A program made the translations under genes and the position numbers. The notes beneath the pieces are model-generated. The model worked only from the letters and a program-made list of their open reading frames with translations. It did no database searches and had not been told where the DNA came from. Of a stretch of 32,891 bases of DNA, positions 7,663-22,277 are shown one piece after another. Numbering within the stretch: position 1 is the first letter of the stretch; each line of letters starts with the position of its first letter. Source of the DNA: a candidate division CSSED10-310 bacterium (GTDB taxonomy: Bacteria > CSSED10-310); contig JAFGMN010000087.1 of assembly GCA_016927515.1 (NCBI GenBank), positions 1 to 32,891 on the forward strand, written 5' to 3'.

Positions 7663-8942
7663 TTCGATTGTTGATCCCCGGAATCTCTTTCCAGTGTTTG
7701 GGTCAGGATACGATTTAAGTCGATTCCAAGCGTATCCCAGGAAAACCTAACAGCTTCAGAGGTATTGAAGTTTTTAGGGGTCTTCATTTCTTCCGCGAGA
7801 TAAACCGCGATTCGCTCAACTTCATCACCAGTGAATTGCTCTCCGATGCCCCTGTTCCGAACAAGTGCAGCCGCGTCACTGTCCTGGGGTGCAATTAGAA
7901 GAACCGGGGTGCCAGCGCCCAGGATCTCAAAGAGTTTTCCGGTCAAAATCCCATTGTCGGCACGCTGCGCCTGTGATTCGATGGATGTCACAACGACACC
8001 CATCCGAGCGGCACGGAACGCTGCCAAAGCCTCGCTCCGGGAAACATGTCCGTGATCGATGACCATCGATTCTACGCCCCAGAGCATCGCCTCTTCTTTC
8101 ACTTCAGCACCCATTTTCCCGAAGAGATGCAGTTCCACAGGTGTCTTATTATCCATTCTTTTTAAATAGGCCATCGATTTTAAAATTGGCGTCAGCGTTA
8201 TCTTGGGTGGGTAAATACTTCCAGCATATACTAATGCGCACGGTGGCAATGACATGGATAAAAGGTCAGTAAAATCCGAAGGCGCGAATCCATTTGTTAT
8301 CACGCGGATATCCGGGTTGGATCCATGGATTTCCCTGAGTACCCGGGCTGTGGAGTCGGATACCGTGATAATGGACGATGCGGATTTCACACATCGCCTT
8401 TCCTCTATAATCTCCCAGGGTCGGGATCGTCTTCCTCGGAGTGGATTTTTGTGCCATAAATCTCGAAAATCGAGTATGTACGGAACACCATATTTCTCCG
8501 ATAAGCGCCGGGTAAATCGAAAGACGGAGAACGGTGATCCATCGGCAACGATCAAGTCAACATGCCGCATCAGGTCCGCTCCGATGGTTTTCCGCAAGTA
8601 CCGCATCCATCCCGCACCGGAATCGATTCCAAGCCAGTGCGCCGCTTTTCGAATGCCACGTGCGACAACCGGGTGCCGTTCATATCCTGCACGATGCATA
8701 GCACCGGGTAATGAGCGAAAATCATGCGCTGTCCGGATAACGATTATTCCTGCTTTTTCAATCAACCGATCGGAGCGGGCAATATCTTCATCGGAGCACC
8801 GCAACCAGTATTGTGTATCGATAGTGACCACCGTCACCGTCCAGCCGAATTTTCGCATCTGTTCGGCGATATTCCAGCACCGGACCGATGCAATGACCGG
8901 TGCAGGAGGAAACGCGCGAGCAATAAACAGAATGTTCGGCAT
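7659..8942 (-). CDS. Glycosyltransferase family 4
   Basis: The 427-residue protein has a GT-B architecture. The N-terminal Rossmann half starts MPNILFIARAFPPAP and includes PYILDFRDLWHKNP at about 168-181. The C-terminal half has ITNGFAPSDF, a donor-site region VYAGSIYPPK and GKLFEILGAGTPVLLI. This is the WbuB-like branch of GT4, in which the usual EX7E motif is loose. It would add one sugar to the lipid-linked repeat unit at the inner membrane. Its ATG shares one base with the TAA of the Wzx-GT4 gene (TAATG), indicating translational coupling. Donor and linkage cannot be predicted. Confidence 0.88.
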   Translation of the reverse strand: MPNILFIARAFPPAPVIASVRCWNIAEQMRKFGWTVTVVTIDTQYWLRCSDEDIARSDRLIEKAGIIVIRTAHDFRSLPGAMHRAGYERHPVVARGIRKAAHWLGIDSGAGWMRYLRKTIGADLMRHVDLIVADGSPFSVFRFTRRLSEKYGVPYILDFRDLWHKNPLRGRRSRPWEIIEERRCVKSASSIITVSDSTARVLREIHGSNPDIRVITNGFAPSDFTDLLSMSLPPCALVYAGSIYPPKITLTPILKSMAYLKRMDNKTPVELHLFGKMGAEVKEEAMLWGVESMVIDHGHVSRSEALAAFRAARMGVVVTSIESQAQRADNGILTGKLFEILGAGTPVLLIAPQDSDAAALVRNRGIGEQFTGDEVERIAVYLAEEMKTPKNFNTSEAVRFSWDTLGIDLNRILTQTLERDSGDQQSK

Positions 8943-11689
8943 TACCTGTTCCTTTTGACTGCAGAAAAAAACACGTCATGTAGCATTGTGCCAACATTGT
9001 GATAGTTGAATCTGCTGCATGCATTCTCGCTGATTGTTCGCGTATCCATTTGTTCCGGATTTCGGATTACGCGCTTCATCGCCTCGGCCAGACCTTCTGG
9101 ATCATCGACATCCACGAACATTCCCTCTCCATCCCGGACCACATGGGGAATGCCACCGACTTTTGTCGTAATGACAATACAACCGCAGGCCATCGCTTCC
9201 ATCAAAACACATCCAAATGTTTCTTGGGAGCTTGCGGCGACGAGAGCCAGACTTTCCCTCATCAGGTCAGCCACTTCCCGTTTCGATATCAAGCCGGTGA
9301 ATCGGTAACTTCCCGGTGGCAATCTGAAAGCAGCCAGTTGTTCCATGGTTTTTCGGTTCGGCCCATCTCCAGCGAATACGAACAGGGTATCCGGTTCGAT
9401 TTGCAGCAATCGTTCGCATGCGTCGAGAATCACCGGCACGCACTTTTGTGGATGAAAATTGGACACATGAAGCAGTTGTTTTTTTCTGCTGGTCATCGGT
9501 GCATAATAAAACGTATCGGTATCAAGCGCGTTTGGTATCCAAGTCGTTAAAGGAAAAATATCGTTTTCCGCGTAAATATCCGGAGCGTCTTTCATGACTG
9601 GGAGCACCCGGGCAGCGTGTTCGAAGGCAAAAGTCAACATTCTCAATTGACGGATACCGATTACTTGCCGAATGAAACCCGTCCAGTGCTGTGAAATCAC
9701 CACCGGAATTTTTCGATAGTTCACGGACTTTATGACACCGTATGCAAGCAAATCTTGTGTCCAGATAACATCGGGAGTTCCCCATTCTGCCGTCACGATT
9801 GACAGCGCTTTTTTCAGCCGGATCCGATGAACGAGCGATCCACGGACCGGCCAGCGCCATCGCCCCGTTTCAATAAACCATGTCGGAATGGATTGGTCAT
9901 GGATTCGTTTGACTGACAACAAGGGAGCGGAATTGGAATCGAAGCGAAACACGAGGACTGCAACATCATCGGTCAACGCAGCGGCCCGAGCATGTTCCCG
10001 GCAAAATACGCCGATGCCGCGATCCAATTGATCCGGCTCGGGATACCACTGGGGTATAAACAAAACTTTCAGTGGACGATCGACAGCTCTTTCCGTTGCC
10101 TGAGAGCGGATTCGGGCGAAAAATCGCTGATCAATGTTTCGGAAAATAGAGTAATTTTTTAAATCACCCCATAACCAAATAATACCAGCTAGCAATGTCA
10201 GGCAGAAAATAGCCGCTCCGGTACCAATGATTCCAGGCCAAGAATCAAGCTGGATGGTGACAAACCGTTCAAAAATGATCCAAAAACCCAGGACGAGCAA
10301 TGGGACAGCATAGATATCCAGAAAGGCGGCGGAAAGATTGCGCCGACGGTGAAACAAGAAAAGAGCCGGGACAAGGAGAGCTGGAATCTGAAAAATAAGA
10401 TGAGCAATTGCCTGGCTGCCCAGAATGCCAGTAACACCATACCGATCGATGAATAGCAGCGATCCGATGAGTGTCACGATCACCGTAACCATCTGAGCGA
10501 TGCAGATGATTCGAAATCGAAACACTGTTTCCATAACTGCCTGCAAACTCATATAGATGACGATAGATGCCGCAATGATGGATCCAAACATATTGGCCAT
10601 ATACCCGGGATAGTAATCCCGACCGACCCATTTCAGGATGAACGGTCCATTCATAATCCAGCTACAGGCAAAAACTGCCACCCCCATCACCGCAGTCAGG
10701 CGCAGGAGGTTGCGTACCGTTTGCAGGCGCCGTTTTCGCCCTTCAATGCTGTGATATTGTTGCGTCAGCCCAGGCCGGATCACAGCAGCAAGACGGTTTC
10801 CCTGGCTACCCAAAGTCATTGGGAGGACCATTAAAAACGACACGACTGTGACGAATTCAAGCCCCATCTCCGGATGGAACCCAGAAATTACTTTATTGAT
10901 GCTGTTGAGCATGATCCGGCCCATATCCGCCAGGAAAACCCAGATACTGATGCGATACAAACTCCCGAAATGCGAAAACTCGACAGGCGGCTTAAACGGG
11001 TTGATGGATATACCGGTCATGTGTGCTCTTATCCGCATCATTAAAGTATTCACAAGAGCGGTTGTCACCAGAGCGACCGCAATTCCGTACAGCGAATACC
11101 CCTTGTAAACGAGATAAAACCCTAAACCGTTGTTGACAAAAGTCGCAATGAGCATAAACAGGGAGGTTTGAGCCAGTATCTGCTGACCTTGCAAAAACGC
11201 CCGATAAGTGACTGTCGAGAAATTCAGTGCTACAGCAAACCCGGAAATAACAAGGAAGATCCGGGCCATCGGAAGCAATTCTAATGGTAATTCTTCTACT
11301 ACCAACTCCATTCGCGTTGCCATGATCACGGCGATTACAACAATAAAGAGAGCGAGTATATGCTGGATCTGACAAGCCGCTTTGAGTTGCTTCAGCGTTC
11401 GTTGATAATCCTCCCGGCGAGGGTCACCCTGGAGATGACGGGCGGTCAGAATACGAACGGTCTCACCTAATCCGACATCGGCGAAACTGGTATACGCGAG
11501 AATTTCCGCAGCGAAGATCCGGAGTCCCATCAACTGCGGTCCGAGAATTTTCAGGAAAAATGGATTGAGAAAAAACTTGACGACCAGATTGACGGCAGTG
11601 ACCAGATAACTTGCACTCAATCCGCGGATCGCGCGATCCGATCGGCTCTTACCCGGCTGCCTAATCGTCTGATCTTGTTTTGTATTCAT
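8942..11689 (-). CDS. Wzx-type flippase fused to a GT4 glycosyltransferase
   Basis: One uninterrupted frame encodes 915 residues. Residues about 20-510 are a polysaccharide-flippase-like membrane protein of the MATE/Wzx superfamily, with about 12-14 hydrophobic segments and the helix-loop LGPQLMGLRIFAAEILAY near 49-66. After a charged linker (about 511-538), residues about 539-910 form a complete GT4 enzyme: KVLFIPQWYPEPD at 541-553, VVISQHWTGF near 663, WIPNALDTDTF near 717, FAGDGPNRK at 772-780, and an EX7E motif at Glu823/Glu831 (ETFGCVLMEA). The flippase part would move the lipid-linked repeat unit across the inner membrane and the soluble part would add a sugar on the cytoplasmic side. 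The start overlaps the upstream gene as ATGA. Joined flippase and transferase domains are unusual; the frame shows no sign of a frameshift. Confidence 0.88.
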   Translation of the reverse strand: MNTKQDQTIRQPGKSRSDRAIRGLSASYLVTAVNLVVKFFLNPFFLKILGPQLMGLRIFAAEILAYTSFADVGLGETVRILTARHLQGDPRREDYQRTLKQLKAACQIQHILALFIVVIAVIMATRMELVVEELPLELLPMARIFLVISGFAVALNFSTVTYRAFLQGQQILAQTSLFMLIATFVNNGLGFYLVYKGYSLYGIAVALVTTALVNTLMMRIRAHMTGISINPFKPPVEFSHFGSLYRISIWVFLADMGRIMLNSINKVISGFHPEMGLEFVTVVSFLMVLPMTLGSQGNRLAAVIRPGLTQQYHSIEGRKRRLQTVRNLLRLTAVMGVAVFACSWIMNGPFILKWVGRDYYPGYMANMFGSIIAASIVIYMSLQAVMETVFRFRIICIAQMVTVIVTLIGSLLFIDRYGVTGILGSQAIAHLIFQIPALLVPALFLFHRRRNLSAAFLDIYAVPLLVLGFWIIFERFVTIQLDSWPGIIGTGAAIFCLTLLAGIIWLWGDLKNYSIFRNIDQRFFARIRSQATERAVDRPLKVLFIPQWYPEPDQLDRGIGVFCREHARAAALTDDVAVLVFRFDSNSAPLLSVKRIHDQSIPTWFIETGRWRWPVRGSLVHRIRLKKALSIVTAEWGTPDVIWTQDLLAYGVIKSVNYRKIPVVISQHWTGFIRQVIGIRQLRMLTFAFEHAARVLPVMKDAPDIYAENDIFPLTTWIPNALDTDTFYYAPMTSRKKQLLHVSNFHPQKCVPVILDACERLLQIEPDTLFVFAGDGPNRKTMEQLAAFRLPPGSYRFTGLISKREVADLMRESLALVAASSQETFGCVLMEAMACGCIVITTKVGGIPHVVRDGEGMFVDVDDPEGLAEAMKRVIRNPEQMDTRTISENACSRFNYHNVGTMLHDVFFSAVKRNR

Positions 11690-12943: not shown

Positions 12944-14830
12944 TCACAACCCTCCATGCTCAATCAGCCGACACAATGCAGTTCGGAATCCCAATGCACC
13001 ATTTAGATGACCGCTCCAAATTTCCGGCAACCAAGTAAATAAATGATTTCTCAAACGTTTCAGTGTATCGTCCCAGTCGATAATCCCTTCATCGATTTGG
13101 AGTCCTTCGCCGTCAATACCTGACGCATCGGCGATATGCAGATGCGCTGCAATTGGCATCACGCTGTCGATAAAATCCGAAAGCGCTGTCCCGGCCAAAG
13201 TACATGCCAGCTGCGCATGGCTGAGATCGAATGTAACCCGGCACCGCAACGTATCACTCAGCAACACCATATCTTCCGCTTGCGTCATTACATTCTGAAA
13301 CCACTGCCCTCCCAAATACCAGGGTCTGGGAGGAAGATTTTCGGGCAGGATCATCGGATATTCGGCCAGCAATGGGTGAAGTTCATTGATGATCCGGTCC
13401 ATCAGGCGGATTCTTTCCTTCGACGGTTCATCCATCGTCATCCCGCCCGCATGAACGACAATGCCGGCTAATGAACGAAAACGGGGAGCTAATCCCGCCG
13501 CCAGGTCTGCCGTCCGCCGAATCATATCAGCCGACGCCGCACGGTGCGCGTGATCGTCTGACGCCAAATCAAGAAGGCGATGCCGGAAGAATTCCGGCGC
13601 ATGAACGAACAGATCGGTTTCCGGATACCAATCACTTTGCGGAATGGCATTGTCAATATCGTGCTCTGACAGATGCATTTCAATGAAATCCGGCTTCAAA
13701 TCCAGCATTGCCGCCATATCATGAAACCGAGCCTTGAGCCCCCATTTCCGGACAAGACGTGTCCGATCGAATTCGATGTTCGGATCCGGTTCAAGGTCGC
13801 CTTCGACAAAGTAATCATCTTTGCAGATTCGCCTCTGAACCGTGACATTCAGCAATTCATCCATGCGCTGTGGAGTAATGCCCTTACCGGGACCGGCAAC
13901 GCAGATCATATCCCGTGTGACTCGTTCGCCGATGGCAATATCCCGGGTAGCGAGCAGGCTTTTCCGCAACACGTGGCGATTGATCTGCTCGATCTGGCAG
14001 ATTCGCTTCTCAGGCCGTCCCAAAGCTATTTCGGCCACTCGGATATCCCTGACCATTTTCTTGAACCCAACCGGTTCGAGACTGGAAGCATGGTCTGGAC
14101 CGGGTAACGTCCGGTCCAGTGTGATGTGCTTTTCGATGATCGATGCTCCAAGAACCCGTGCAACCACGGGAATCGAGATTCCTCGTTCATGACCGCTGTA
14201 TCCGACAGGTACATTGAATTTCCGCAACGTCTCGATGAAGCGCATATTCAGTGAATCGAATGGTGCTGGGTATGCACTGACACAATGCAGCAACGCAAAC
14301 ACGGCGTTCCTCAGCTTGAGATGCTCCACCGTCCGCCCAATCTCCTTCTCTGTGGCCATCCCAGTAGATAAAATCATCGCCTTTCCCGTATCGGCAATGG
14401 CATCGATCAGGGGTAAATTCACCAGATCCGCCGACGATACCTTGAAAAAACGGACACCAATTGAATCCAGGTGGTGCAAGCTGGGTATATCCCATGGCGT
14501 ACATAAAAACTCGATCTCTTTATCGGAACAATAATCCTTGAGGCTTCCAAATGCCCCCGGACTCAGATCAGCATCTTTGAGCGCTCCAAGAATGTGATGA
14601 AAACCCCATTCCGCCAGGTTGGGTTCCTTCAGAAGCCCAGCCGGATAGCATTGATCCAGATGTCGCATTTGGAATTTTACCGCGTCCGCACCGCATTCCA
14701 CTGCGGCATCAACAAGCTGCCGGGCTCTTTCTACGCTACCGTTATGATTAATGCCCGCTTCGGCGATGATGTAACACGGATGAGATTCACCAACGATACG
14801 GTCACCCAATTGAATCGTACAGCATTCCAT
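12944..14830 (-). CDS. NeuB-family nonulosonic acid synthase fused to a TIM-barrel sugar isomerase/epimerase-like domain
   Basis: The 628-residue product is almost twice the usual NeuB length. Residues 1-270 are the NeuB catalytic barrel: CYIIAEAGINHNGS (19-32), ADAVKFQ (49-54), LCTPWD (109-114), ILSTGMAT (153-160), LHCVSAYPAP (181-190), and the expected metal ligands His214 (YSGHE) and His235 (IEKHIT). An antifreeze-like SAF domain follows at about 288-347. Residues about 358-628 form a separate xylose-isomerase/AP-endonuclease-2-like barrel with plausible metal ligands Glu497 (LPENLP), Asp535 (TFDLSHAQ), His565 (HLHIADAS) and Glu603 (LPEIW). NeuB enzymes condense an N-acyl hexosamine with phosphoenolpyruvate; the second domain may prepare or reshape the aldose substrate (inference). 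GAGGTGA lies six bases before the ATG. It is the second NeuB here. Confidence 0.9.
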   Translation of the reverse strand: MECCTIQLGDRIVGESHPCYIIAEAGINHNGSVERARQLVDAAVECGADAVKFQMRHLDQCYPAGLLKEPNLAEWGFHHILGALKDADLSPGAFGSLKDYCSDKEIEFLCTPWDIPSLHHLDSIGVRFFKVSSADLVNLPLIDAIADTGKAMILSTGMATEKEIGRTVEHLKLRNAVFALLHCVSAYPAPFDSLNMRFIETLRKFNVPVGYSGHERGISIPVVARVLGASIIEKHITLDRTLPGPDHASSLEPVGFKKMVRDIRVAEIALGRPEKRICQIEQINRHVLRKSLLATRDIAIGERVTRDMICVAGPGKGITPQRMDELLNVTVQRRICKDDYFVEGDLEPDPNIEFDRTRLVRKWGLKARFHDMAAMLDLKPDFIEMHLSEHDIDNAIPQSDWYPETDLFVHAPEFFRHRLLDLASDDHAHRAASADMIRRTADLAAGLAPRFRSLAGIVVHAGGMTMDEPSKERIRLMDRIINELHPLLAEYPMILPENLPPRPWYLGGQWFQNVMTQAEDMVLLSDTLRCRVTFDLSHAQLACTLAGTALSDFIDSVMPIAAHLHIADASGIDGEGLQIDEGIIDWDDTLKRLRNHLFTWLPEIWSGHLNGALGFRTALCRLIEHGGL

Positions 14831-14841
14831 TGTATGTCACC

Positions 14842-16458
14842 TCATCGGGGATACAACGGTTTCTCGTTGTAGCTTTCCATTTTTTCTCTCATTAAAGACT
14901 GAAACATGGCTCTGCCCTCCTCCGTGTCCTGTTCCGCTATCCGGATCCTCGGGAAATCATCCTCCGGCAGATAGACATACAAAGGAAAACAGCGAAACAA
15001 ACCCATCAGTTCTGAACAGGTCATCCCTCGGGGTACATAGTTGGGAATGCCAAAAAGACATCGATAATCAGGCTCTAACCCCCCTTCGAATCCGTCCTTT
15101 TCACACAAACTTCGTATCGGCGTTCGCGGATATGGCTCAAGCAGAGTGCATGACACAGAATCCACGGGCGCTTGTCGATTCAGTTGAATCGTCTCGAAAA
15201 TCCGCTCCCGATTTTCACCCGGTAATCCCATGATATTATAGCACGACACCCGTATCCCGGCCTCCTGGATCATCCCTAATCGGTCTAAAATCATTTGATT
15301 GCCTATCTGCCGATTCAGAACATGCCTCCGGATCCACTCCGACCCTGATTCGATCCCGGCCGCGATTGTACGGCAGCCGATCCGCTTTAAAAGCGCTAGT
15401 TTGTCTCGTGTGATCGATTCCAACCGGGCATAGATCAGGAACGGAAGACCAATATCCCGGAGATAAACCCGGGCGAACGCGGATAATGTATCGACGGGAA
15501 CCGCAAGAAAATCTTCGTCCCAAAACCGGATAAAGTCGAATCCGTGCCGATCGATCAATAGACGAAGCTCAGCGATCGTCTGCTCGACCGGCTTCGTCCG
15601 AACGAGCGATGCATGGGGAAACAACGTCCGCGTTTGCTGGTTTAAAACGGCATTCACACAGTACGAACAGGAGAATGGACACCCACGGCTCCATTCAAAA
15701 TTCACCATGCGAAACAGACGTCCATCAAACGGCCGATAAAAATGGACCGGATCGAAAAGATCCAACTCCGGAACAGGCAGATCAGCCATTTCCGTTCGCC
15801 AAACCACATCATTGCGCCGCCAGCTGTCGCCAGAACGGATCCACATGTTCGGCGACTGCTCCCAATCCACACCGGATGCCAACCGCGACAAGTATTCAGG
15901 AAATGCACGCTCGCCCTCACCAACGCAAACAGCATCCACAACGGGATGTTGAATGACGGATTCCGGCACCACGCGAGCATGCACACCACCAACGACCAAG
16001 ACAAATCCATGCTTGTCCTTGAAAGGAGCGATCCGACGCAATGCAGTCCCGGCGTCCATCGTCAAGCATGACATCCCGACGACATCCGGTCGGAATCGTT
16101 CGATTAGAACTTTAAGGTCCTGATCAGGATCTGAATGCCACAACTCCGATCCGGGATCAAACACATCAAGCAGTTGCAAGCGTTCCGCATATACGGTTCG
16201 CTCCATCTTCAATGCTGCCAGATCAATAGGGGAAACTGGCTTGAAAAAGTGTTCGGGATGAGCGAACTTCCCGGTCGGTAACTCCCCGGATCCATCTGGA
16301 GAAAAGACCATGTTTTCCGGCTGGAAACAGTGATAATTTGTGTAATCGAAGAGCCGGACATCATGGCCAGCCCGGCGAAGAACGGCAATCAGTATGGGAA
16401 GATTGATCGGGATACTGCCTCGTCCGGCCCGGGATGGATTGATCATCAGGATGCGCAT
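14842..16458 (-). CDS. B12-binding-type radical SAM protein
   Basis: Starting at the ATG at 16458, whose A is shared with the NeuA stop (TGATG), the protein has 538 residues and begins MRILMINPSRAG, a typical B12-binding-domain start. Residues about 1-200 form the cobalamin-binding-like Rossmann domain (DVVGMSCLT at 125-133, VVGGVHARVVPE at 155-166, VCVGEGERAFPEYL at 177-190). The radical SAM core follows with SRGCPFSCSYC, placing Cys260, Cys264 and Cys267 around the 4Fe-4S cluster. A DxHxxG cobalamin-ligand motif is not seen, as in many members. Members carry out methylations and other radical chemistry. Between two nonulosonic-acid genes it may modify a sugar, but the reaction is unknown. 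Further upstream in-frame starts lie inside neuA and are not used here. Confidence 0.85.
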   Translation of the reverse strand: MRILMINPSRAGRGSIPINLPILIAVLRRAGHDVRLFDYTNYHCFQPENMVFSPDGSGELPTGKFAHPEHFFKPVSPIDLAALKMERTVYAERLQLLDVFDPGSELWHSDPDQDLKVLIERFRPDVVGMSCLTMDAGTALRRIAPFKDKHGFVLVVGGVHARVVPESVIQHPVVDAVCVGEGERAFPEYLSRLASGVDWEQSPNMWIRSGDSWRRNDVVWRTEMADLPVPELDLFDPVHFYRPFDGRLFRMVNFEWSRGCPFSCSYCVNAVLNQQTRTLFPHASLVRTKPVEQTIAELRLLIDRHGFDFIRFWDEDFLAVPVDTLSAFARVYLRDIGLPFLIYARLESITRDKLALLKRIGCRTIAAGIESGSEWIRRHVLNRQIGNQMILDRLGMIQEAGIRVSCYNIMGLPGENRERIFETIQLNRQAPVDSVSCTLLEPYPRTPIRSLCEKDGFEGGLEPDYRCLFGIPNYVPRGMTCSELMGLFRCFPLYVYLPEDDFPRIRIAEQDTEEGRAMFQSLMREKMESYNEKPLYPR

Positions 16459-17168
16459 CAGAATTGCAATTCTTCCCGGTATCGTCGCATGGCGATGCGA
16501 CATTCCGAAAAATCCTGCTCCGTGTCGATATCCAATGCAGACCATTCGGGCATTAGATACAAACGGATCGGCGGATTCAATCGATTCCCGCTGTGGAGCA
16601 GCGTATCGCATCCCGTTACGTAGATCGATCCGTTCTCCAGGTACAGCGGCATCATGTCCTGGCTACGCGGTCGATGGGCCGGGTCATAGTTCACCGGAGA
16701 CGGCCGATCGACTGGACCATTCCACACAAAGCGTCTGTGTTCAACGACGGATAGAACGGAACCGCAATGGGAGGAATGAAACAGGTGCACTGCATCAGCA
16801 ATATCCTGAGAGCGCCGAAGGGGGGATGTGCACTGAAGCATGACGACAGTTTCGGGCATCCACTGCCTGTCGGTTTTTAAGAACTGAAGAGCATGGAGCA
16901 GAGCATCTTCCGACGGAGATTCGGGGCCGGCCAGCGCGGATGGCCGCCGGATAATGTCTGCCCCTTCCTGGGTTGCGATCTCGGTAATACGATCATCATC
17001 GGTTGAAATAAAAATACCGCTGGAGACACCGGAAGCGATCGCTTGACGAATCGTCCAGGCGATCAACGGTTTTCCATTTAAATCTCGTGTGTTTTTTCCG
17101 GGAACCCGGACCGATCCGCCCCGGGCAGGAATGATCACCACCGTTTGATTCTTCAACGTGTTTTGCAT
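16458..17168 (-). CDS. neuA: CMP-nonulosonic acid cytidylyltransferase (NeuA type)
   Basis: The 236-residue protein is close to the usual bacterial NeuA catalytic length. It carries the signature VIIPARGGSVRVPGKN near the N-terminus, STDDDRI, MLQCTSPLR near the middle, PLYLENGSIYV, and DIDTEQDF near the end, which supplies the metal-binding Asp pair. It activates a nonulosonic acid with CTP to the CMP form. The signature has Val where most relatives have Lys (GGSK). Starts at ATG 17168, GTG 17177 and TTG 17156 are all possible; I chose the ATG, which overlaps the upstream gene by 16 bases. It lies between the two NeuB genes, and a second cytidylyltransferase lies at 21561-22277, so two different products may be activated. 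Confidence 0.9.
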   Translation of the reverse strand: MQNTLKNQTVVIIPARGGSVRVPGKNTRDLNGKPLIAWTIRQAIASGVSSGIFISTDDDRITEIATQEGADIIRRPSALAGPESPSEDALLHALQFLKTDRQWMPETVVMLQCTSPLRRSQDIADAVHLFHSSHCGSVLSVVEHRRFVWNGPVDRPSPVNYDPAHRPRSQDMMPLYLENGSIYVTGCDTLLHSGNRLNPPIRLYLMPEWSALDIDTEQDFSECRIAMRRYREELQF

Positions 17169-18553
17169 ATTTTCCACACCGGAACGGCTGGATCCACAAC
17201 GAAAAGATCAGTTCCGGAATCAGTGATAACAACATTAATTCCTCTCTCACCCACAATCAACAACCACTCCCGGATATCATCAATTCCAAACGATTTAATT
17301 GCATTTCTCTGCTGACGACGTGGATCTGTGATCTGCTTTCTGAAAGCATGCGACGCGGGAAGATTCAGCCACCACCTCAAATAAGCCCCGGCCAACCGAT
17401 GAAACCTGAACGGATGGGATACCCCGTAATACTCTCTGAGCACTTCATGCCGGTTAGGTCTCCGTGCATTTCTCATCCTACTTGCCATCGCGTGCGCCAG
17501 CCGAATTGCCGAGCGTCCATCGAGCGGTCCTGCCCAGGATTCGATTTCCATCCACTCGTCTTCGTTGAGTTTTCTTGCCGTATCCCCGGCCTTTACCAGA
17601 TCTCGGATCGCCTCGACGAGCATATCCTCACTCTGGCATTGTCGTCCAGCTGCATGCACCGCAGGAAGCTCAGCCCACCGCTTCAACCATGCCGTTTCAA
17701 ACACCGGTAAACCCTGGATCGCCGCTTCCAAACCCGTTGTACTGCCATGATGAATCAGCGCTGTCGATTGATGAAAACTCCGACGGATTTCCCCTTCGCG
17801 CTCGATAAACACGTTATCGCCAACTATGCATTGATCGTAGATTGTTTCATCCTCGAACGGGTGAGGACGGAGCACCCATTGAATCCCGGGAAACTCGCGG
17901 CTCAGCCGCCGCGTCAGTTTGATGAACGCCTCAATCGCCCGCGATTCTGTCTCCACCCGCTTATCGATCAGCACCTGGCTGACCCCCGCTCGCTTCAATA
18001 TCTCGATTTCAGTATCCCGATCGGTAAATCGAGGATTCACCAACGTAAATGTCGAGGCGATCATGATTCGGTGAGCCTTTTCCCGGCTCCTGGACCATCG
18101 GGCTTCCAAGGCCTCTTTGTACGGCGAGTAATAATAATCAAACCGAGGATGCCCTGTCACAGTCACCTGATCCTCGAGAAAAACACCGGTATCTGTCAGG
18201 TAGTCCGCTACCCGCGGCCCCCAGCTGAAATAAGTTTCGATGCACATCCGTGAATCGGGGTCGGAGGCAATGGTTGCGGCATAATCAGCAAGGCTGGATA
18301 TGATACCTCCTTCGGTATCCAGCACAAACACCATGATTCCTTTATGAAACAGTGCTCGGATGAAATGAGCATTGGCATCCCGACAAAACGGCACCAGGAC
18401 GGCATCCGGAACGAGGTTGAACACGGCTGAATGTCCTTGATGCATCGATGCCAGATACGGATGAATACCCAGTCGATGCAATTCCACTGCGCACAGCACC
18501 ATTCCCGCCAAATCCCGCTGAGGATGATCAACCAGAATCAGAATTCTATTCAT
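17153..18553 (-). CDS. Surface-carbohydrate GT-B-like protein, possible CMP-sugar transferase
   Basis: The 466-residue protein resembles the surface carbohydrate biosynthesis proteins related to CDP-glycerol glycerophosphotransferases. The N-terminal half contains MVFVLDTEGG (about 74-83) and VTVTGHPRFDYYY (130-142). The C-terminal half has WVLRPHPFEDE (226-236, HP motif) and ALIHHGSTTGLEAAIQGLPVFE (265-286, Ser/Thr motif). Acidic-Gly, HP and Ser/Thr motifs in this order recall bacterial sialyltransferases that use CMP-linked donors. It sits between neuC/legG and neuA and overlaps both, which supports a role in placing the nonulosonic acid, although the acceptor is unknown. GGAG lies five bases before the ATG. 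The family call is moderate and the function is inference. Confidence 0.7.
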   Translation of the reverse strand: MNRILILVDHPQRDLAGMVLCAVELHRLGIHPYLASMHQGHSAVFNLVPDAVLVPFCRDANAHFIRALFHKGIMVFVLDTEGGIISSLADYAATIASDPDSRMCIETYFSWGPRVADYLTDTGVFLEDQVTVTGHPRFDYYYSPYKEALEARWSRSREKAHRIMIASTFTLVNPRFTDRDTEIEILKRAGVSQVLIDKRVETESRAIEAFIKLTRRLSREFPGIQWVLRPHPFEDETIYDQCIVGDNVFIEREGEIRRSFHQSTALIHHGSTTGLEAAIQGLPVFETAWLKRWAELPAVHAAGRQCQSEDMLVEAIRDLVKAGDTARKLNEDEWMEIESWAGPLDGRSAIRLAHAMASRMRNARRPNRHEVLREYYGVSHPFRFHRLAGAYLRWWLNLPASHAFRKQITDPRRQQRNAIKSFGIDDIREWLLIVGERGINVVITDSGTDLFVVDPAVPVWKICKTR

Positions 18554-19697
18554 TACGGCTCCATATGGCCAGATCTCTGAATTGCTTCTCGACAGGCGTC
18601 TTCCATACCTCGCCTTTTGTCAGTACGCTGATGAATCGACTGCAACTGGATCCATCACCGAAATGCAGGGTCTTGATCTTTTCGCAGTGTTTTAGTCCGG
18701 TCAGTGCATTACCCAATTGATCCGGGTTCTCACCGATGTTCGCGATACCAGCGTAACTAAAACGGTTGCGTTGCCTTGTCCCGAGATTGATTGTCGGGAC
18801 ACCGAAAACCGGGGCTTCGTGAATCCCGCAACTGGAGTTTCCAACGATGCCATCGGCATGTCTGAGCAAGGTCAGGAAGAATTCGAAACGCATCGATGGC
18901 AGGCACCGAAACCAAGAAGCATCGTGATAGTGTTTATAGGCATCGATAATGTCATCAGCCCCGGGTTCGTTATTGGGGTAGATCGCCACACAGGATCTGC
19001 CGCTGGAAGCGATGACATCCATGATCATCCTCACACGATCCCTCAGGTTGTCCCTCTCGAACGCAACAGGATGATAGACGAGAATGATGTATGATGAAAA
19101 TGGAATGTTGTAATGATCCTTCACTTCATCCAAACATGGCAACCCGTCACTGAGCATAATATCGATATCGGGTGACCCGATCACATGAATCGACCCTTCG
19201 ATTTCTCCCAATTGCAGCAACCGGCGCTGAGCATCATTTGTTGATGCAAAGTGGATATGAGCAAGCTTCGTCACGGCATGCCGGATGATCTCATCGATCG
19301 TTCCGGAGATTTCGCCACCTTCCATGTGTGCAGTCAGAACCAGGTTGAACGACCCGGCGATCGCTCCGGCCAAGGTTTCCGGCCTGTCCCCATGAATGAC
19401 AAGCATGTCCGGCTGAACCTTTTCAAGGATTGAACTCAACCCCCGGATCGTGTCGGCAACAATGTGATCGCGTCGGCCGGTTTTTCCAGGGTTTTGATTC
19501 GTAAACGGATGGATATCCGAAAATCCGTCTCGGAAAATCTGAGCCGCCGTCAATCCATAGTGCGGAACCAGATGCATACCCGTCACGGCAATGGAGCAGT
19601 TCAGATCCGGATGCACTTCAACCGCTTTCATCAGCGGTTTCATTTTGCCGTAATCGGCACGGGAGGCAGTCAGAAATAGAATCCGTTTTTGATCCAT
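18546..19697 (-). CDS. neuC: Hydrolysing UDP-N-acetylglucosamine 2-epimerase family (NeuC/LegG)
   Basis: The 383-residue protein has the full NeuC/LegG signature: FLTASRADYGKMKPL (8-22), VIHGDRPETLAGA (100-112), AHMEGGEISGTIDEIIRHA (123-141), VIGSPD, and GNSSCGIHEAPVFGVPTINLG near the C-terminus. It releases UDP and inverts C2 to give free ManNAc (NeuC) or 2,4-diacetamido-trideoxy-mannose (LegG), the substrate of NeuB. I chose the ATG at 19697 with GGAG six bases upstream, rather than the in-frame TTG at 19712. It sits directly after the first neuB gene and overlaps the next gene by eight bases. NeuC and LegG cannot be separated by eye. LegB, LegC and LegH partners are absent from the window. 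Confidence 0.9.
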   Translation of the reverse strand: MDQKRILFLTASRADYGKMKPLMKAVEVHPDLNCSIAVTGMHLVPHYGLTAAQIFRDGFSDIHPFTNQNPGKTGRRDHIVADTIRGLSSILEKVQPDMLVIHGDRPETLAGAIAGSFNLVLTAHMEGGEISGTIDEIIRHAVTKLAHIHFASTNDAQRRLLQLGEIEGSIHVIGSPDIDIMLSDGLPCLDEVKDHYNIPFSSYIILVYHPVAFERDNLRDRVRMIMDVIASSGRSCVAIYPNNEPGADDIIDAYKHYHDASWFRCLPSMRFEFFLTLLRHADGIVGNSSCGIHEAPVFGVPTINLGTRQRNRFSYAGIANIGENPDQLGNALTGLKHCEKIKTLHFGDGSSCSRFISVLTKGEVWKTPVEKQFRDLAIWSRNE

Positions 19698-19715
19698 AGG
19701 CTCTCCGCGCAAGTG

Positions 19716-20774
19716 TCACGCTTCCGGTAGAAAATCAGTCCACGCAAGTTGTGTGTCTGCCGGTATATTACGGGCGACCCGGCGACCCAGAATCCGCTCG
19801 AACATCTCCGCTCGAATCTCTCCGGTTCCGGGTCGTTTGACCCATACATTGTGCATGGTTAACTCATCACCCTGTGAAATCGGGCACGTCGTCACCACTG
19901 ATGCGAACGCAAACCGAATCGTCGGCTCCTCATCCTCCAACACCGTCTTACCGCCACCCGACGCCTGGAACACAGCCACAGAACCCCGGATCAGCTCTGA
20001 GAGATCCTTCGGGTCCATACTGATGGCGATATCCGGTCCCGGCCACGATTTATCAGAGGTAAAGTGACGCTCTAAAATACGAGCACCCAACGCAACCGCT
20101 CCCAAACATGCATAGTTATCCTCGGTGTGATCGCTGAGGCCGATGACATGATTGGGGAATGCTGCCTGCATTTGAGTAATGGCTCCCAAACGGACCAGAT
20201 GGTGAGGAGTCGGATACATGGATGTGCAATGCAGCAGCGCAACCGGTACATTGAAACGCCTGAAAATCGAAACTGCACGGGCGATGGATGCCATTTCATT
20301 CATCCCTGTCGACAGAATCACGGGTTTTCCGAATTCTGCAATGTGCTGGAGCAGCGGATAGTTGTTACATTCTCCGCTCCCGATTTTAAAGGCCGGGATA
20401 TCCATTGTCTGCAACCGGTCAGCCGCTTTCCGGGAAAAAGGTGTGCACAGATAGATCATTCCCAATGCCTCTGCACGCGCTTTGACGATCTGTTCTTCAC
20501 CGTAGCTCAGCGCGCACCGGGACATGATGTTCCAGATGGTGTCGGAACTGTTGGCAGGAATAACCTCATTAGGTATCATCTCATCATCGACAATATGGCA
20601 TTGGAACTTGACGCATTCGCAGCCCACCGCTGCTGCATCTTCAACCATCTTCAGCGCTTTTTCCAATGATCCTTCGTGATTGATGCCGATCTCCGCAATC
20701 ACAAGCGGCGGATGATCATCTCCAATGATGCGATCGCCGATACGGAATTGCCGGTGCCTTGCCATGTTCACCAT
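19716..20774 (-). CDS. neuB: Nonulosonic acid synthase (NeuB/LegI type)
   Basis: The 352-residue protein is a standard-length NeuB. It contains LVIAEIGINHEGSL (24-37), VKFQCH (55-60), LCTPFS (109-114), FKIGSGECNN (129-138), ILSTGMNE (153-160) and LLHCTSMYPTP (180-190). The metal ligands are His216 (LSDHTED) and His237 (LERHFT), and a SAF domain spans about 288-350. It condenses phosphoenolpyruvate with an N-acyl mannosamine-type sugar to a nine-carbon keto acid. Possible starts are GTG 20783, ATG 20774 and ATG 20765; I took 20774 because GGAGG lies nine bases upstream. It overlaps the SDR gene by seven bases. The neighbouring PtmA/PtmB-like genes favour a legionaminic-type product, but Neu5Ac is not excluded. 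Confidence 0.93.
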   Translation of the reverse strand: MVNMARHRQFRIGDRIIGDDHPPLVIAEIGINHEGSLEKALKMVEDAAAVGCECVKFQCHIVDDEMIPNEVIPANSSDTIWNIMSRCALSYGEEQIVKARAEALGMIYLCTPFSRKAADRLQTMDIPAFKIGSGECNNYPLLQHIAEFGKPVILSTGMNEMASIARAVSIFRRFNVPVALLHCTSMYPTPHHLVRLGAITQMQAAFPNHVIGLSDHTEDNYACLGAVALGARILERHFTSDKSWPGPDIAISMDPKDLSELIRGSVAVFQASGGGKTVLEDEEPTIRFAFASVVTTCPISQGDELTMHNVWVKRPGTGEIRAEMFERILGRRVARNIPADTQLAWTDFLPEA

Positions 20775-21586
20775 ACTGTCCACCCTCCATCAACCACCAG
20801 GTTATGTCCTGTCATATAACTTGCAGCATCGGATGCCAGAAAAACAACGGCCCCCGCCAGTTCATCACGATCACACATTCGCCCCATCGGATTGAGCGCG
20901 GAAAAGCGTGTTAAAAATGGATCGGTATGTTTGTCGAACACACCGCCCGGAGTGAGTGAATTGACTCGGACCCCTGTTTCACCCCAACAGGTTGCCAAAT
21001 AGCGCGTCAGAGCGATCACTCCGGCTTTGCTTACTGAATACGCCACCGGCTGGGAAACACCTGTGCCATCATAGATTGTGTGATTAGGGCTGACCACGCC
21101 ATATTGGGATGCAACGTTGATGATCGAGCCAGTTCGCTTTTCCGTCATCATTTTACCGATAACCTGACAGCCCATGAAAACACCGGTCAAGTTGACATCG
21201 AGAATGCTTTTCCAGGCCATATCGGGAAACGTATCGAATCCATCGGAATAGCCCTCGATCCGAGATGCGTTTGTAAATCCTGCATTGTTGACGAGGATAT
21301 CAACGGAGGTAAAGCGATCGCAAAGGATTTCCCGGAGTCTTTCCCAATCATTGCGTTGCGTTACATCGCATCCCACTGCGATGGATTGAACACCCCATTC
21401 CGATGTCACACACGCGGCCAGTCCATCACACCGCTCCCGCTTTAGATCGGTGAGAACAACTGCAGCGCCTGCCGCCGCCAACGCATGAGCATATACTTCA
21501 CCAAGCAATCCGCCGGTTCCTGTAATAACAGCCGTTTTCCCGGTCAGGGAAAACAGGTTTTTAAATCGTTTTCGATCGATTGTCAT
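20768..21586 (-). CDS. Short-chain dehydrogenase/reductase (PtmA-like)
   Basis: The 272-residue protein is a classical SDR. The dinucleotide-binding TGTGGLLGE is at 22-30, the NNAG motif at 100-103, the catalytic Ser at about 160, and YSVSK (Tyr183, Lys187) completes the active site. The C-terminal FLASDAASYMTGHNLVVDGG is typical of the group. PtmA-type SDRs travel with legionaminic-acid and flagellin-glycosylation genes in Campylobacter-like clusters; their exact step is not settled. The start overlaps the cytidylyltransferase gene by 26 bases and the end overlaps neuB. It probably reduces or oxidises a sugar intermediate of the nonulosonic-acid branch. Confidence 0.9.
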   Translation of the reverse strand: MTIDRKRFKNLFSLTGKTAVITGTGGLLGEVYAHALAAAGAAVVLTDLKRERCDGLAACVTSEWGVQSIAVGCDVTQRNDWERLREILCDRFTSVDILVNNAGFTNASRIEGYSDGFDTFPDMAWKSILDVNLTGVFMGCQVIGKMMTEKRTGSIINVASQYGVVSPNHTIYDGTGVSQPVAYSVSKAGVIALTRYLATCWGETGVRVNSLTPGGVFDKHTDPFLTRFSALNPMGRMCDRDELAGAVVFLASDAASYMTGHNLVVDGGWTVW

Positions 21587-22277
21587 CGTTTTTCCATCCA
21601 GCCATTGCTTCGATTACTTTCAAATCCATCTCTTCGTCGATATCCCAGGCTCGCCGCCGTGGAATTTCAACGATCTCCATGACCGCCTGCGACCAGTGTT
21701 CGAATCGATCCAGCACTTCCCGGCGAATGGCATACACAGCGGGTGACAGCCCGTAGACGACAGGTGCTTCCTGGCGATTATGCACGATTGAATCCGGCGA
21801 CTTCACGATGCGATACCCGCCCTTTCTATCCGGTTCAACCATATTGAAATAGGGATTGCGGTGAGGGATGAACGCTGTTATGACCACGTCAGCAGCGGAT
21901 TCTCGAAGTTTCCGTATGCACCGGGTAATATCTTCCGGTTCGCGCAGGGGAACACACAGATCGAGATCCACCAGGATCTCCACGCGGGTTTCATAGCGTC
22001 GTTCCCATTCGTCGACCAGATGTCGGAAAACCGACCATTTAGGTGTCGTATGCCCGGCCAGTTCCTGTGGTCGGAGACACGGTATAACAGCGCCGAACGT
22101 CCGTGCGGTCTCGGCAATGACGGTATCGTCGGTCGAAACAGCCATGGCATCAAGTTCCGGGCATTTGCGCCCACATTCAACCGCGATACCGATCAGAGGC
22201 TGACCGAACAACGTCCGCATCGCTTTTCCTGGCACTCCCCGTGACCCTCCCCGTGCACACACCGCTCCCAATATCAT
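21561..22277 (-). CDS. Acylneuraminate cytidylyltransferase family protein (PtmB-like)
   Basis: The 238-residue protein has the CMP-nonulosonic-acid synthetase signature AVCARGGSRGVPGKAM near the N-terminus, VSTDDTVIAE, LVDLDLCVPLREPEDI, HNRQEAPVVYGLSPAVYAIRRE and a late WDIDEEMD that places the metal-binding Asp residues. It is only distantly similar to the NeuA at 16458-17168, so the two are not a recent duplication. It would couple CTP to a nonulosonic acid, probably the product of the neighbouring NeuB/LegG pair. ATGA overlaps the end of the oxidoreductase gene. The substrate is inferred from context. Confidence 0.87.
   Translation of the reverse strand: MILGAVCARGGSRGVPGKAMRTLFGQPLIGIAVECGRKCPELDAMAVSTDDTVIAETARTFGAVIPCLRPQELAGHTTPKWSVFRHLVDEWERRYETRVEILVDLDLCVPLREPEDITRCIRKLRESAADVVITAFIPHRNPYFNMVEPDRKGGYRIVKSPDSIVHNRQEAPVVYGLSPAVYAIRREVLDRFEHWSQAVMEIVEIPRRRAWDIDEEMDLKVIEAMAGWKNDDNRSKTI

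Follow-up and report, generated by a model that had tools for sequence, protein, structure and literature searches.

A widespread fusion of a NeuB-type synthase with a xylose-isomerase-like barrel, a candidate bifunctional nonulosonic-acid synthase

The window, that is, the whole stretch of 32,891 nucleotides analyzed here from a candidate division CSSED10-310 bacterium, carries on its minus strand an open reading frame (14830 to 12944) that starts with ATG, is preceded 6 nt upstream by an AGGTGA stretch and encodes a protein of 628 residues. A NeuB catalytic barrel with its catalytic residues occupies residues 39-274 (14009-14716; PF03102, E 4e-77, 259 bits against a cut-off of 22.1). It is followed by a probable SAF (antifreeze-like) domain at residues 291-346 (13793-13960), which scores just under the Pfam cut-off in the window protein (19.1 against 21 bits) and over it in all six relatives scanned. 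The remainder of the chain (residues 355-628; 12947-13768) is a second barrel matching AP_endonuc_2, the "xylose isomerase-like TIM barrel" (PF01261; residues 408-598, E 2e-15, 57.5 bits against a cut-off of 31.1), and Pfam, model and profile together place it in a family of its own within that superfamily. An AlphaFold2 model of the whole chain, built with 46 sequences, reached a pLDDT of 92.5 and a pTM of 0.77. The initial annotation had described a NeuB-barrel fusion of 628 residues, without giving a strand, and had suggested a domain search of the second half and a structure prediction of the whole chain; the reading frame, both Pfam domains and the models agree with that description.

Nonulosonic acids are coat sugars of flagella, capsules and lipopolysaccharides. 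Which type a bacterium makes is usually predicted from its NeuB together with the enzymes encoded beside it. Upstream of the fusion, in the same run of minus-strand genes, lies a cytidylyltransferase of the CMP-nonulosonic acid type (16458-17177; CTP_transf_3, PseF-like, below the PseF cut-off). Between the two is a B12-binding radical SAM enzyme (14842-16458, minus strand; taken to begin at residue 52 of the longer frame 14842-16611), which scores well under every NCBIfam cut-off and may modify the nonulosonic acid. As a conserved partner of the fusion it was discarded, no homolog being found beside the other 81 fusions. The window also holds a complete second set on the minus strand (18546-22277), consisting of a hydrolyzing 2-epimerase of the NeuC/LegG type (18546-19712; 359 bits against a cut-off of 235.9), an ordinary NeuB of 355 residues that is close to SiaC of Neisseria meningitidis (19716-20783), an SDR and a cytidylyltransferase. 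This NeuB is the normal neighboring copy that had been reported earlier, and, given the complete second set, two distinct nonulosonic acids are likely produced from this locus. A 915-residue protein on the same strand (8942-11689) has at its N-terminus a membrane part of several helices, which by eye resembles a flippase, joined to a GT1 glycosyltransferase, and only GT1 is matched in Pfam.

The NeuB half shares with N. meningitidis NeuB/SiaC (1xuu, 1xuz, 2wqp) the layout of barrel plus SAF domain and the catalytic Glu, Lys, His and Asp. It keeps E24, K52, Q54, K130, Y187, H214, E233, H235 and D246, among which Glu24, Lys52, Lys130, His214, His235 and Asp246 are invariant across the aligned fusions. 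However, it differs from the meningococcal enzyme, apart from the extra C-terminal barrel, in the loss of Arg314, in Asp135 replacing Glu134 and in the additional Arg56 and Arg216; the last three belong to the fusion-specific positions of this half, which also include Tyr62, Gly213, Glu215 and Lys290. Arg314 of N. meningitidis NeuB positions the N-acetyl group of ManNAc (PMC6795526). In the alignments this position falls on Gly313 of the window protein (13892-13894), and across 82 fusions it is Ser (67), Gly (12), Thr (2) or Ala (1) and never Arg, whereas Arg is present in the ordinary NeuB of the window and in 8 of the 13 ordinary NeuBs used for comparison. Because the equivalent of Arg314 is missing in all 82 fusions, the substrate of this half is probably not ManNAc, and the earlier proposal that its product differs from that of the neighboring NeuB appears likely. 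Against the N-acetylneuraminate synthase equivalog TIGR03569 (cut-off 399.65), the fusion scores 318.6 bits, and the ordinary NeuB, with 352 bits, is also under the cut-off.

The C-terminal half, when modeled separately (AlphaFold2, 56 sequences), gave a pLDDT of 93.6 and a pTM of 0.92. This model has 193 matches in the PDB at E <= 0.001, which comprise TIM-barrel sugar enzymes and endonuclease IV. The nearest solved folds, all with TM scores of about 0.6-0.7, are the L-xylulose/L-ribulose-5-phosphate 3-epimerase UlaE (3cqj; top match, E 1e-10, TM 0.67), endonuclease IV and enzymes of the D-psicose/tagatose 3-epimerase type, whose D-psicose epimerase-type entries stand just behind UlaE; the dehydratase AsbF and the oxygenase MbnB are also among the matches. 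UlaE and the 3-epimerases resemble the barrel in their four-ligand metal site as well, although one of their two catalytic Glu positions is Gln in 48 of 82 fusions. When profiles were compared, the nearest solved chain was the uncharacterized AP_endonuc_2 protein MJ1311 (3wqo, E 6e-17), followed by endonuclease IV (E 1e-6), while the sequence likeness to solved isomerases is marginal (UlaE, E 0.075). MJ1311 has the same Asp/His metal motifs but is a stand-alone protein of 293 residues without the PPxPWxFGGQ motif. With endonuclease IV (1qtw, 5zhz) the barrel shares the fold, the HAP motif containing His410 and the metal Asp/His; however, the DRH motif of the trinuclear zinc site is absent, and the profile alignment shows an EGLQ-type sequence in its place in the fusions. 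The AP_endonuc_2 superfamily includes, besides isomerases, phosphodiesterases such as endonuclease IV, dehydratases and an oxygenase.

The initial annotation had assigned to the barrel a full metal set of Glu497 (13340-13342), Asp535 (13226-13228), His565 (13136-13138) and Glu603 (13022-13024), and these four putative ligands are all present in the window protein, on the predicted fold. Among 82 fusions, Asp535 is kept in 81, and H565, E603, H538 (13217-13219), H410, E575, R368, D371, E384, H386 and the PEIWxGH motif, within which Glu603 lies, are invariant. About 24 residues of the barrel are invariant, mostly polar, glycine or tryptophan, and they include all but one of the putative ligands. 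Residue 497, the first putative ligand or base, is Glu in 34 fusions, including that of the window, and Gln in 48. Chains of the Glu type are nearly all about 630 residues long; those of the Gln type mostly have about 750 residues and an N-terminal CBS domain, as found by scanning five, and also include a CBS-less group in which this domain sits on a neighboring kinase. CBS domains are usual regulatory modules. Two changes suffice to explain the Glu/Gln label on the barrel tree.

A survey of genomes for the same architecture had also been proposed. Scanning 84,980 species genomes with two short barrel motifs as query yielded 473 relatives, the best 80 of which were examined together with the window protein and two further genomes (L005, L006). 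In 82 of these 83 chains both halves form one chain, and in the sole exception (L065) the gene is split over two frames. The best 80 of the 473 come from Chloroflexota, Acidobacteriota, Cyanobacteriota, Pseudomonadota, Campylobacterota, Nitrospirota, Bacillota, Actinomycetota, several candidate phyla and others. Among 290 broadly sampled genomes, the fusion barrel occurs in four (281-379 bits), and no stand-alone barrel scores near the fused copies, the best such cousin reaching 57 bits. Hence the barrel forms a separate family, which in these data occurs only in partnership with NeuB. The pairing is widespread and, in all that was sampled, obligate, so it is reasonable to read it, as the initial annotation did, as consecutive steps acting on a single sugar. 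As minor observations, a plasmid search returned one full-length copy, without annotation, in Ensifer canadensis; one locus (L073, 1783-4692) encodes the fusion and a LegB-type dehydratase on one chain of 969 residues, which in L023 are two separate, overlapping genes; and an actinobacterial MAG (L064) and a Sphingomonas isolate (L067) have an identical barrel, a same-sized fusion of 1073 residues and same-sized neighbors, probably owing to contamination of the MAG.

The co-occurrence with NeuC/LegG (TIGR03568) and PseG (TIGR03590) was determined in 50 fusion genomes, which were selected for their closeness to the window and are in many cases incomplete. The fusion is the sole full NeuB in 26 of them, none of which has NeuC/LegG or PseG over the cut-off, while one or the other was found in 20 of the 24 genomes that also have an ordinary NeuB. 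Within the fusion genomes this difference is strong (p = 2e-10), but it was rejected as decisive evidence after comparison with an outside control: among 95 genomes with an ordinary NeuB and no fusion, only 39 (41%) have NeuC or PseG. As 59% of ordinary-NeuB genomes thus lack both by these two models, their absence is no proof of replacement. Even against this control the fusion-only genomes are depleted (0/26 versus 39/95, p = 1e-5, in a sample biased to close relatives and including incomplete genomes), which is consistent with the barrel replacing NeuC/LegG/PseG. Where NeuC is present in the window and in five other loci (L009, L014, L023, L073, L084), it adjoins the ordinary NeuB and not the fusion.

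A cytidylyltransferase of the CMP-nonulosonic acid type is encoded in 55 of the 82 fusion loci, directly adjacent in 36, and several loci near the branch of the window contain only this gene and the fusion. Flagellin-type Maf transferases lie beside some fusions. Neither LegB nor LegC was retained as a regular partner: LegB has a close match only in L023 and L073, and a DegT aminotransferase is present in a minority of loci; owing to this rarity the fusion does not simply belong to a variant legionaminic pathway. Near about one fusion in six, and not near the fusion in the window, there are GDP-sugar genes. ManC is over the cut-off in L023, alongside a cytidylyltransferase, ManC and phosphomannomutase-type genes accompany a cytidylyltransferase in L048 and L055, and a GDP-mannose 4,6-dehydratase is near the fusion in L027, L034 and L036. 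Another order, found whole or in part in L044, L058, L078, L083 and L086, consists of an HddC-like gene, an HddA-like kinase, the fusion, a GmhA-like gene and a cytidylyltransferase, in which the HddA, HddC and GmhA-like names are family-level because the scores are below the equivalog cut-offs; L063 contains GmhB, over its subfamily cut-off. The fusions with these heptose gene sets (L044, L058, L063, L078, L083, L086) form one clade (support 100/100) spanning two phyla, Pseudomonadota and Chlorobiota, and the kinase of this clade bears the CBS domain that is missing from its fusion. In L028, an arylformamidase/cyclase-family gene (8244-8864) directly precedes the fusion, and this cluster recurs in several Andersenbacteria-type genomes.

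Given the domain content, the putative metal ligands, the conserved positions, the obligate linkage of both halves in the sample and the gene neighbors, we infer that the barrel is catalytic and that the whole protein may act as a bifunctional nonulosonic-acid synthase. The metal-dependent barrel would ready an aldose, the NeuB half would join it to phosphoenolpyruvate and the neighboring cytidylyltransferase would yield the CMP-sugar. The product would not be Neu5Ac, because the SAF-domain Arg that binds the N-acetyl group is gone. For the barrel itself, the reading we put first, with a probability of roughly one in three, is that it does the job of NeuC/LegG/PseG and cleaves a nucleotide sugar, probably a GDP-sugar, to supply the NeuB half with a manno-configured aldose. 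Release from a nucleotide sugar is our first choice because the GDP-sugar genes belong to two unrelated routes that both lead to manno-configured GDP-sugars, and we counted the second-best solved profile relative, endonuclease IV, a metal phosphodiesterase, in favor of hydrolase chemistry. Against it, the trinuclear motif of endonuclease IV is not kept, and the GDP-sugar genes may be there for other sugars in that glycan. We know of no nucleotide-sugar hydrolase with an AP_endonuc_2-type fold.

The initial annotation instead suggested that the barrel might be an isomerase or epimerase of the aldose used by NeuB. Such an enzyme might, for example, make mannose from fructose, or mannose-6-phosphate from fructose-6-phosphate, for a Kdn-like acid. 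The fold matches to UlaE and the D-psicose epimerase type speak for such an enzyme, as does the four-ligand set with both Glu residues in the window protein, and, in view of the loci with only a cytidylyltransferase and the fusion, a common hexose may be what it acts on. However, the fold was the argument for this assignment and the superfamily is mixed, the likeness to solved isomerases is marginal at the sequence level, two-base epimerization should be disabled in the 48 of 82 fusions with Gln at position 497, and a GmhA-like or ManC isomerase function is already present in some operons. The specific assignment is therefore not supported, and we regard it as doubtful. The same two-gene cassettes, together with the lack of NeuC/PseG, would also be accounted for by an animal-type route, in which the NeuB half uses a 6-phosphorylated aldose and the barrel strips the phosphate from the 9-phospho product. 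The fusion-specific Arg56 and the near-invariant Arg216 could bind such a phosphate, and a phosphatase role was proposed for a Leptospira protein in Ricaldi 2012 (PMC3438082). This route is nevertheless unlikely, since the heptose-clade gene sets reach the GDP-sugar and do not stop at the 7-phosphate and the endonuclease IV motif is not kept. Comparison with a provisional human NANS sequence was equivocal, its scores overlapping between fusions and ordinary NeuBs, and was dropped as a means of identifying an animal-type synthase. Lastly, the barrel might bind metal and sugar as a dehydratase, an oxidative enzyme or a regulatory or scaffold domain. AsbF and MbnB, both fold matches, provide precedents within the superfamily, and many fusions have an N-terminal CBS domain, but the roughly 24 invariant residues speak for a catalytic role toward a single defined sugar, and we consider this reading improbable too.

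If the preferred release of an aldose from a nucleotide sugar holds, the barrel could represent a new class of nucleotide-sugar hydrolases. In the heptose clade it would then convert GDP-heptose to D-glycero-D-manno-heptose, leading to a CMP-activated ten-carbon 3-deoxy-ulosonic acid, and the window enzyme would turn a hexose into a non-amino or otherwise unusual nonulosonic acid. This extension is speculative and quite unlikely, and nothing in support of a ten-carbon ulosonic acid was found in the literature. More generally, the product of the fusion is probably an acidic surface sugar of an unusual kind. The class, with 473 matches in many phyla and often as the sole NeuB without NeuC/PseG, probably has its sugars annotated by default as sialic acid.

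The partner barrel had initially been described as not characterized. This stands as far as enzymology is concerned, none being found in the papers searched; however, a similar architecture has been reported in Leptospira. An extra barrel is not mentioned in the accessible parts of the work on Shewanella sfmA (290 residues) or on Caulobacter NeuB, nor is such a fusion in those of a survey of Vibrionaceae nab clusters. According to Ricaldi 2012 and Fouts 2016 (PMC4758666), a Leptospira NeuB has a C-terminal "endonuclease-like" domain, read as a phosphatase, unlike the reading favored here. The phosphatase fusions mentioned in the initial annotation may be this same architecture. By description, L. 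interrogans NP_711794/YP_002104 carries, after its NeuB domain, a C-terminal part "homologous to endonucleases" and probably has the same architecture, in which case the fusion was already noticed, though not characterized. Its surroundings are similar as well: NP_711794 is described as lying beside a legionaminic acid cluster that is complete and includes a separate ordinary NeuB as well as two CMP-nonulosonic acid synthetases.
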